DNA of 45,654 nucleotides, taken from contig DVNN01000108.1 of the NCBI GenBank assembly GCA_018714325.1, positions 1-45,654 on the forward strand. Reading direction: 5' to 3'. Shown here piece after piece: positions 8,240 to 19,631 of the stretch (position 1 is its first letter; each line of letters starts with the position of its first letter). The DNA is from Candidatus Pelethocola excrementipullorum (GTDB taxonomy: Bacteria; Bacillota; Clostridia; Lachnospirales; Lachnospiraceae). The translations under genes and the position numbers were made by a program. The notes below the pieces were generated by a model. That model was not told where the DNA came from and did no database searches. It was given only the letters and a program-made list of their open reading frames with translations.

Positions 8240-8333
8240 ATGATACCAGGGTCAAAAGGTCATGCTTTTCATGCTTGCATGAAAAAGCATGAATTTGGGA
8301 CCCGCAAAACATGAGAAAGTAGCCCGAACAGGG
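8240..8333. repeat. Dispersed intergenic repeat, copy 1 (longer)
   Basis: TGATACCAGGGtCAAAAGGTCATGctttTCATGCTtGCATGAAAAAG...AGTAGCCCG; partner copy at 28880-28933. Confidence 0.7.
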
Positions 8334-8440
8334 CGGATTTCGAATGTTTTTAGAATTGCGAGAGCACAAAGTGCGTAGCAATTCGTAGGTATCCTTTTTA
8401 TTCAAATAGATTCAACAGTATATCCTGTCAAATGTAGTGA

Positions 8441-17264: not shown

Positions 17265-17669
17265 ATGTTCAAACCAAAATCTTTACTGAAAGTTGTATCA
17301 ATCTTACTAATCATCTTTGGAGCCCTGGGACTACTCATATCAGTACTCGGTGTATTCGGTGCTTCATTCATCAACAACACTACCGATCCGGCCATAACCC
17401 AGAATATGAAAGACGCTATAACCGATGCTTATACACCACTTACAATAGCCCTTAGTCTAGGCGGGGGAATCTTCTGCATCCTTAGCGGAATCTTTGGATT
17501 GATTGGAAAAAGCTTTAAAGCCGCATTAATCGTAATGGTACTATACATCGTAATCGAAATTGTAAATATAGCAATGGCCATCCCTGTTTCAGGCTTCAGT
17601 ATTATAAACCTCATTACTTTTATCCTTCCGATACTATACTTATGGGGACTATACCAGTCAAAAGAATAA
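17265..17669 (+). CDS. Small membrane protein, four predicted TM segments, unknown function
   Basis: 134 aa; hydrophobic segments; AGGAGGAAACTATT RBS; co-directional with the MacB operon. Confidence 0.8.
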   Translation: MFKPKSLLKVVSILLIIFGALGLLISVLGVFGASFINNTTDPAITQNMKDAITDAYTPLTIALSLGGGIFCILSGIFGLIGKSFKAALIVMVLYIVIEIVNIAMAIPVSGFSIINLITFILPILYLWGLYQSKE

Positions 17670-17749
17670 ACACAAACAAAATATTTAATTTTGAAACAAC
17701 TTAAACACCATGAAAGACAAAGATTGTTAAAACTTAAAACACTAAATAC

Positions 17750-17803
17750 AATCCCCATAGGAAAAACTACTAATCACTACCAGTTATCCTATGGGGATTT
17801 CTT
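17750..17803 (+). terminator. Terminator of the ABC efflux operon
   Basis: AATCCCCATAGGA...TCCTATGGGGATTTCTTT. Confidence 0.8.
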
Positions 17804-17909
17804 TATAACTAAACAGGCTCACGGAAAATCTAGATATACTGCAAATCGAACTATCCTATATGACCCATGTTAGCATTTTCAGTTAATTTACAATGAAGAA
17901 ATATAAGCA

Positions 17910-17992
17910 GAAAACGTTGCAGCATCTCGGCAAGGGTTTCTATTACCGGACACTGGGGACAGTTTCGCCCTTTGGAAGTACTAAGATGAGAT
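17910..17992. repeat. Decayed half-copy of the 283-bp palindromic element
   Basis: GAAAACGTtGCaGCatCtCGG...ACACTGGGGaCaGTTTCGCCCTTtGGAAGTACTA resembles the reverse complement of 18250-18333. Confidence 0.65.
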
Positions 17993-18050
17993 ATCCCCCC
18001 CTTTCATACATTGAATAAAATTGAGGAAATACTGAAGAATATGAAAACCA

Positions 18051-18333
18051 GAAAACGTCGCGGCAGCCCGGCAGGGGCTTCAGCTGCTGGACACAGGGGC
18101 ATTTGCAGCCCTTGCCGGAAGTACTTAGGCGAAAATGGCACGGTACTTACGGATGGATTTGGAATTACCAATTCCAAATCCAAGATGCACCGAGTGTCAA
18201 AACCATCAGGTTTTGGCACGAATTGCATCGGTTCCGTAAATACCGCGCCATTTTCACCATAGTACTTCCCAAGGGCGAAACCGCCCCAGTGTTCAGCAGC
18301 TGAAGCACCCTACCGGGCTGCCGCGACGTTTTC
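18051..18333. repeat. 283-bp nested palindromic element/structured RNA candidate with 21-bp perfect terminal inverted repeats
   Basis: GAAAACGTCGCGGCAGCCCGG (18051-18071) vs CCGGGCTGCCGCGACGTTTTC (18313-18333); further stems 18077-18100/18283-18306, 18117-18125/18261-18269, 18131-18139/18247-18255, 18147-18153/18233-18239; apical hairpins 18154-18182 and 18184-18229. Confidence 0.85.
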
Positions 18334-18350
18334 GTCCGTCTTAAATCAGT

Positions 18351-19451
18351 TTATTCAAACTCCCCCTTCACCGCCTCCAGAGCGGCCACGATCACCTTAT
18401 CCATGTCATAATATTTGTAATTCCCCAGCCTTCCCCCAAAGATCACATGCTTCTCCTTCGCCGCCAACTCCTGATACTTGGCAACTAAAGCATTATTTCT
18501 CTCATCATTGACCGGATAATAAGGCTCCATCCCAACCTTCCATTCGGATGAATACTCCCTGGAAATCACGGTCTTGGGCTGTTTGCCGAATTCAAAATGC
18601 TTATGCTCAATGATTCTGGTGTAAGGTACGTCACGCTCCGTATAATTCACCACGGCATTTCCCTGGTAATTATCACAATCCAGCACCTCATTCTCGAACC
18701 GTACGGAACGATACTCCAAGGCTCCCAGCTGATAATCGAAGTAGGCATCCAGCATTCCAGTGAATACAATTTTATCCGCGATATCAGGATGTGTCTTCTT
18801 AAAATCTGCGAAATCCGTACTGGTGAGCACTTCTATCCCCTCCAGCATCTTTTCCACAATCTTGGTATAACCACCCATAGGTATCCCCTGAAACCGGTCA
18901 TTAAAGTAATTATTGTCATAGGTAAAGCGGAAAGGCAGCCGCTTGATGATAAAGGCCGGAAGTTCCTTACAATCCCTTCCCCACTGCTTCTCAGTGTAAC
19001 CCTTGATCAGCTTTTCGTAGACATCCCTGCCGGCCAAAGACAGGGCCTGCTCTTCCAGATTCTTCGGTTCCGTAATCGAAAGCTCCGCGATCTGCTTCTC
19101 GATGATTTCTTTTGCCTGCTGTGGGGTTCTGATATTCCACATCTTGCTGAAGGTATTCATGTTAAAAGGAAGATTATAAAGTTCATCTTTATAGACTGCA
19201 ATCGGTGAATTGATATAATGATTGAATTCGACAAACTGATTGACATAGTCCCAGATTTGCTTGTCCGATGTATGGAATATATGGGCACCATACTTATGAA
19301 CATTAATTCCTTCCACATCCTCAGTATAGATGTTACCGGCTATATGGTCCCTCTTATCGATTACAAGAACCGTTTTCCCCCGCTTTTTAGCCTCGTAAGC
19401 AAACACGGATCCGAATAATCCAGCACCCACGATAAGATAATCATATCTCAT
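18351..19451 (-). CDS. glf: UDP-galactopyranose mutase
   Basis: MRYDYLIVGAGLFGSVFAYEAKKRGKTVLVIDKRDHIAGNIYTEDVEGINVHKYGAHIFHTSD; start set at 19451 with AAAGGAG RBS. Confidence 0.96.
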   Translation of the reverse strand: MRYDYLIVGAGLFGSVFAYEAKKRGKTVLVIDKRDHIAGNIYTEDVEGINVHKYGAHIFHTSDKQIWDYVNQFVEFNHYINSPIAVYKDELYNLPFNMNTFSKMWNIRTPQQAKEIIEKQIAELSITEPKNLEEQALSLAGRDVYEKLIKGYTEKQWGRDCKELPAFIIKRLPFRFTYDNNYFNDRFQGIPMGGYTKIVEKMLEGIEVLTSTDFADFKKTHPDIADKIVFTGMLDAYFDYQLGALEYRSVRFENEVLDCDNYQGNAVVNYTERDVPYTRIIEHKHFEFGKQPKTVISREYSSEWKVGMEPYYPVNDERNNALVAKYQELAAKEKHVIFGGRLGNYKYYDMDKVIVAALEAVKGEFE

Positions 19452-19631
19452 GATAATTCTCCTTTGACATTTTTCATTTATATTTCGTGCCATCCACAAA
19501 AATCAGATTCACAACTTATTATAACAGAACTTTACCTTAAAGCAAACAGAACTGCGCCATATAAAACAGAGGATATTTCCGAATAACAACCTTGAAAAAC
19601 CATACAACTCATGCAAAAGACAAAAGGGTTC

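Follow-up and report, generated by a model that had tools for sequence, protein, structure and literature searches.

A contig of 45,654 nucleotides from Candidatus Pelethocola excrementipullorum (the window) carries a long nested palindrome beside glf, and the question is what kind of element this is. A preliminary description placed it at 18051–18333 and left two possibilities, a non-autonomous palindromic mobile element (MITE- or REP-like) or a large structured ncRNA. All of the pairings that it listed were recovered when the inverted repeats were checked, and the large, ordered fold that it proposed is beyond chance on both strands. For the 283-nt palindrome, plus-strand RNA has an MFE of −204.1 kcal/mol, where shuffled sequences average −87.1 (z −23.7), and minus-strand RNA one of −212.9 kcal/mol (z −21.8).

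No strand had been assigned; the relatives of the element (see below) fix the conserved reading as minus, with the family model R2 giving 185.8 bits on the minus strand versus 48.8 on the plus strand. The conserved orientation of this copy is thus the minus strand, co-directional with glf. The latter (18351–19499, minus strand in the ORF list; UDP-galactopyranose mutase, a name taken from the preliminary description) has its stop codon directly before the element, which starts 13 nt past it. Fold, R2 score and end motif together delimit the whole three-way-junction palindrome at 18048–18337 (minus strand, as are all of its parts), and it reads 5′-GGAC[G ... C]TGG-3′. The end motifs GGAC (18334–18337; GTCC on the plus strand) and TGG (18048–18050; CCA on the plus strand) come from a count of exact matches in 92 copies; the stem-base motif GGAC[G..C]TG is exact in 22 of the 92, and its reversed control in none (0/92). 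The motif thus moves the ends slightly outwards from the earlier span, to 18337 and 18048.

From the base upwards, the outermost 5′ and 3′ arms (18308–18333 and 18051–18076) form a 26-nt inverted repeat that is 96% complementary. An outer conserved internal loop follows, with GTTTCGCC on its 5′ side (18274–18281; kept in the window, C225 and half copies) and TGCAAAT on its 3′ side (18101–18107; window and C225 copies). The inner loop has CTATG on the 5′ side (18258–18262; CTAAG in most copies; alignment A4, columns 44–49) and CTAAG on the 3′ side (18124–18128; columns 213–217, with A in 96% at column 215). At the apex, hairpin A (18184–18229) combines an unpaired ATTC/TCRG internal loop with a TGAT tetraloop, as defined by an alignment of 60 copies. 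Hairpin B (18154–18182) varies in sequence and keeps its pairing; in the corresponding helix 11, 95.3% of cells are paired and 11/11 pairs covary.

The preliminary description did not include a relic of a second copy, comprising the 5′ half only, at 17905–17989 on the plus strand (BLAST, 77% over 80 nt; direct repeat, 76% over 54 nt). Relic and main copy form a convergent pair. An inverted-repeat search also found a 16-bp inverted repeat at 17750–17799 (plus strand), the likely terminator of the convergent gene at 17265–17669; a consensus scan detected no T-run there, and no intrinsic terminator (short GC-rich hairpin plus T-run) in 17600–18500. Elsewhere in the window, positions 8241–8394 (plus strand) match the Clostridiales-1 sRNA RF01699 with 127.6 bits, the only Rfam gathering match and one that fits the order of the Lachnospiraceae.

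A dispersed family with a common architecture

The element is one of many dispersed copies. BLASTN finds a second full copy in the same genome, on contig C225 directly past the stop codon of serA. Its core is about 73% identical to that of the window copy, both fold as a rod with a three-way junction, and the two already show many compensatory pair differences. A first covariance model was built from these two copies only, and its search of the own genome yielded a third full copy on C36. In all, the genome holds three full and several diverged copies, with seven matches to a rebuilt model; weaker ones, among them those in C132 and C345, seem to be due to chance or to coding sequence. Two diverged copies, on C202 and C372 (L046:1501–1663 and L047:1501–1661), have the rod in common (CTAAG loops, TGCAAAT) and a different apex, a single apical hairpin with CTGAGCG..CGAG. 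This suggests that apex modules are exchangeable.

Of 397 genomes in the window's family, 23 contain matches to the first covariance model; outside the own genome, the best E-values go down to 1e-23. Twelve sampled genomes of that family contain 24 to >120 copies apiece. With the rebuilt model, all 96 scored candidates in G020 match, as do 94–95 in two other genomes; copy numbers are at least 126 in G020 when this genome is scored by itself, 95 in G258, 94 in G219, 62 in G236 and 60 in G031, and 35 and 24 in the carriers G153 and G159. Some 20 of the 126 copies in G020 lie at or near contig ends (e.g. C46:1–144, C64:1–88). Short-read assemblies thus seem to break at the palindromes, and copy counts from drafts are underestimates. 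Near-identical, lineage-specific copies occupy different loci inside one genome. Among 344 genomes of the order, matches were confined to the own genome, a single further member of the family and, weakly, one genome of a different family, and 398 further genomes across the phylum gave no match; in these wider searches only a few candidates were scored per genome, so that weak cases can escape.

BLASTN against 299 genomes of the family missed all of this except for one 28-nt match, and a covariance model was needed. The BLASTN comparison suggested at the outset thus does return further copies in the same genome, and relatives elsewhere were reached by the covariance model. BLASTN matches to phages and plasmids were chance only. 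When viral and genome contigs were scanned for the exact motif, three viral and 18 genome matches came up; all lack the fold and were likewise judged to be chance.

Across the 92 copies examined, every one is built alike: the long stem varies but contains small internal loops that are conserved, and the three-way junction at its apex bears two hairpins, of which one is conserved and the other variable. Predicted folds mostly span 240–480 nt. Hairpin A is recognisable as ATTC ... TGAT ... TCAG in nearly all copies, although their stems share almost no sequence; in the 60-copy alignment used for pairing and covariation, its unpaired columns are 88–100% identical and its stems fully variable. In that alignment, 93.8% of cells pair, both sides have changed in 79/79 pairs, and covariation scores 0.952, compared with 0.201 when shuffled and at most 0.141 when slid, figures that lean towards the model because the alignment was fitted to it. 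The independent folds, the end motif and the orthologue comparisons are free of this dependence. Covariation beyond both controls, as expected of a structured ncRNA, is thus present. No named RNA family had been recognised earlier, and correctly so, as Rfam 15 gives no match above threshold; the E-value matches are mainly plant microRNA precursors, which match any long hairpin.

Variants on the plan occur. In G040 (L133, L134, L135, L136, L068), a further conserved hairpin, of 60 nt, comes after the rod. Most of these units are closed by inverted ends, AATTCAGGTTTG..CAAACCTGAATT, and in most copies the 5′ inverted end lies at or within a few bases of a stop codon. At L155 (G344, past an S1-domain gene), a decayed element stands beside a different hairpin repeat in tandem array, CGCTCGAAAAAGCCTCGCTGACTATTTTTCATGCATC.

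Stop codons and empty sites

Copies sit at gene ends. In 73/92, a long sense frame has its stop codon between −200 and +45 nt from the hairpin's 5′ base, in most cases at ≤30 nt; the distance past the stop codon is mostly 0–60 nt over the copies as a whole. A simple ORF caller assigns 36 copies to tandem-sense, 33 to convergent, 15 to tandem-antisense and 8 to divergent contexts, so that in tandem contexts sense exceeds antisense orientation by 36 to 15 (p = 0.005). The 19 exceptions to the stop-codon rule suggest that some copies are genuinely antisense or 5′ placed. The genes upstream are mostly unrelated, with few recurrences such as glgB. Where two copies lie close together they are convergent in 17/17 cases, which fits convergent genes that each have their own element. 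Some convergent pairs combine the same pair of subfamilies, in one order or the other (L109 and L113 in G357, L152 in G041); these are possibly a composite mobile unit.

Related genomes have empty sites, several of them with a short terminator-like hairpin. The genus mates G001 and G002 have zero copies and G004 has one weak match. In G001, the convergent arrangement at glf is kept with only a short hairpin, as against 681 bp in the window. The serA and C36 loci are also empty in these genus mates, with terminator-like hairpins in their place in G004. Likewise, glgB ends in an ordinary terminator in G041, and in G357 the element is found in that place. At one locus, G344 retains just the outermost stem of the element present in G020, as if a long palindrome had been deleted. 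The flanks of three related copies in G258 show no obvious target-site duplication.

Concerted evolution of the arms

Selection for a folded transcript should leave G-U pairs far in excess of A-C mismatches on the sense strand. This is the case for the acceptor and T stems of tRNAs in the same genomes (33 G-U versus 3 A-C, position-based counts; tRNA counts from ARAGORN brackets were discarded as biased, since mismatches are not bracketed). The excess is absent from the element: its core helices have 61 G-U and 58 A-C on the sense strand, and arms aligned without a wobble bonus have 235 and 219. Moreover, in two orthologous element pairs from G020 and G344, 30 of 378 base pairs have changed on both sides, when 4.9 are expected from the per-site rate.

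The arms thus evolve in concert and symmetrically with respect to strand. Equality of G-U and A-C, together with a sixfold excess of double changes, argues for copying from arm to arm at the level of DNA instead of selection on folded RNA, and points to a DNA-level process as what may maintain arm complementarity. Template-switch repair is a known route to homogenised hairpin arms (PMC8794818). Frequent correction of the arms would also erase wobble pairs, and an additional role of the RNA is therefore compatible with the counts.

Nature and significance of the element

The element is probably a non-autonomous palindromic mobile DNA repeat, in effect a 'giant REP'. Of the two initial possibilities, the MITE- or REP-like one has good support, since the many copies are dispersed, have been amplified in particular lineages, are missing from orthologous sites and lie where REPs lie. 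The structured ncRNA is less likely, as the wobble excess chiefly expected of an RNA is absent, but mostly sense orientation and conserved unpaired bases keep it as an alternative. We infer a trans-acting mobilising enzyme, with the apex as its recognition site, and a function at 3′ ends. The element would insert just past stop codons, replacing a terminator or beside it, with its conserved strand mostly co-directional with the gene. The enzyme would probably recognise a folded single strand or a cruciform apex, by way of the three-way junction and of hairpin A, including the unpaired ATTC/TCAG and TGAT of the latter; complementarity would be the sole need of the arms. One arm may be copied as DNA from the other, by synthesis on a hairpin or by template switching when the element is replicated or transposed, and the transcript from upstream would then have the long hairpin as its 3′ end. 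Against a mobile repeat, neither a transposase nor a clear target-site duplication was found, and the sense bias exceeds what a pure DNA parasite needs. More tentatively, the family may represent a new class of mobile element that cycles through a self-templating DNA hairpin, in which only apex and end motif are constrained in sequence and the arms are rewritten in concert in each cycle, and which spreads to gene 3′ ends, displacing terminators.

The obvious candidate for an enzyme is a RAYT. RAYT-like proteins of about 250–310 aa occur in ~11/17 sampled related carriers versus 1/9 sampled related genomes without an element match, and presence of RAYT/Y1 correlates loosely with copy number. 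Many high-copy genomes have single-copy RAYT-like Y1 genes of about 250 aa that are not adjacent to elements (L186:3680–4453, L188:3395–4138). None of the RAYT-like genes examined has elements at its flanks; those in G020 and G344 each have one copy about 2.6 kb away. Three carriers, G153, G159 and the own genome, with 35, 24 and 7 copies, respectively, have no match to PF01797 (Y1/RAYT), and clustering of neighbouring genes for a resident transposase showed no enriched family. Hence classical REPs or REPINs that are moved by a RAYT (HUH Y1) transposase and are merely very long appear distinctly unlikely: REP-like placement, convergent pairs and the distribution of RAYT-like proteins fit, but these three carriers have no PF01797 match, the genes are not element-flanked, and the repeats measure 260–480 nt instead of 20–40 and have no GTAG tag.

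A functional structured RNA of 3′ UTRs, whose transcribed rod and junction would act by protein binding or in protection or termination of the mRNA and whose covariation would be due entirely to selection on the folded transcript, is rather unlikely. It would account for sense-strand placement right past stop codons, for residues of hairpin A and its tetraloop that are 88–100% conserved while 79/79 pairs covary, and for ordinary terminators being replaced at orthologous sites; it sits badly with equal G-U and A-C in helices and arms, unlike tRNA, with mostly unrelated upstream genes, with a range from 0 to >120 copies between relatives and with antisense orientation in 15/51 tandem-context copies. 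The position after stop codons and the terminators at orthologous sites might also suggest unusually long intrinsic terminators of independent origin that are alike in looks only. That is barely conceivable, as the shared apex alone contradicts it. Not only the apex but also the internal loops and the end motif are conserved over 60 diverged copies, near-identical copies occur at different loci, and the window copy has no T-run. It is very improbable, too, that the mobile unit is a pair (a composite A-to-B unit, like REPINs or BIMEs) of which single copies are relics. The 17/17 convergent close pairs, the G357 pairs of the same two subfamilies in both orientations and the full copy with its opposing relic in the window speak for it; most copies are single, however, and convergent genes with their own elements explain the pairs equally well.

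Among known systems, REPs lie predominantly downstream of coding regions and, in convergent intervals, within 20 bp of both ORF ends (PMC3733652). The element resembles REPs, BIMEs and REPINs (PMC3733652, PMC3116915) as a dispersed palindrome with up to more than 100 copies per genome and species-specific subfamilies, found at gene 3′ ends and in convergent intervals, often as opposed pairs. It differs in length (260–480 nt as against 20–40 nt), in a three-way-junction apex with conserved unpaired bases, in arms that vary freely yet co-vary, and in its ends, GGAC..TGG instead of the GTAG/CGTC tag; the complement of these ends holds GTCC and CCA, reminiscent of CGTC/CCA tags in reversed order. 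REPs typically flank a cognate RAYT; for the element, no such link was found. With MITEs and foldback elements it shares non-autonomous size, terminal inverted repeats, absence of an ORF, amplification within the genome and empty sites in relatives; in its case, however, the inverted repeat takes up almost all of the element, arm sequence differs between copies with complementarity kept, and neither a parent transposon nor a clear target duplication was found. It is therefore classed as a variant of dispersed palindromic repeats, REP-like in its working and MITE-like in its dispersion, which departs from REPs in size, tag and RAYT.

Integron attC sites are likewise variable palindromes set by structure and unpaired bases, directly past stop codons and with lineage-specific variants. 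The element has no cassette arrays, is dispersed behind chromosomal housekeeping genes and is much longer. Analogies to attC, group IIC introns and parvovirus ITRs were set aside, as the enzyme or array is lacking. Large structured bacterial ncRNAs (Rfam 15) are similar in length, elaborate conserved fold and massive covariation, but the element has no Rfam match, no wobble excess and 0 to >120 copies per genome. With template-switch hairpins it has in common compensatory double changes from arm-to-arm copying; those described concern stems of RNA genes (PMC8794818), whereas here whole arms of ≥100 bp in dispersed repeats are involved.

No earlier description of the family was found in Rfam or in the open literature searched, and repeats of such size, abundance and regular build seem not to have been described before. 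Their near-complete 'RNA-like' covariation probably arises at the level of DNA, which is a warning for covariation-based discovery of ncRNAs. The family also allows one to test how a bacterium keeps and spreads palindromes of >250 bp, a kind of DNA that is normally unstable, at gene ends.
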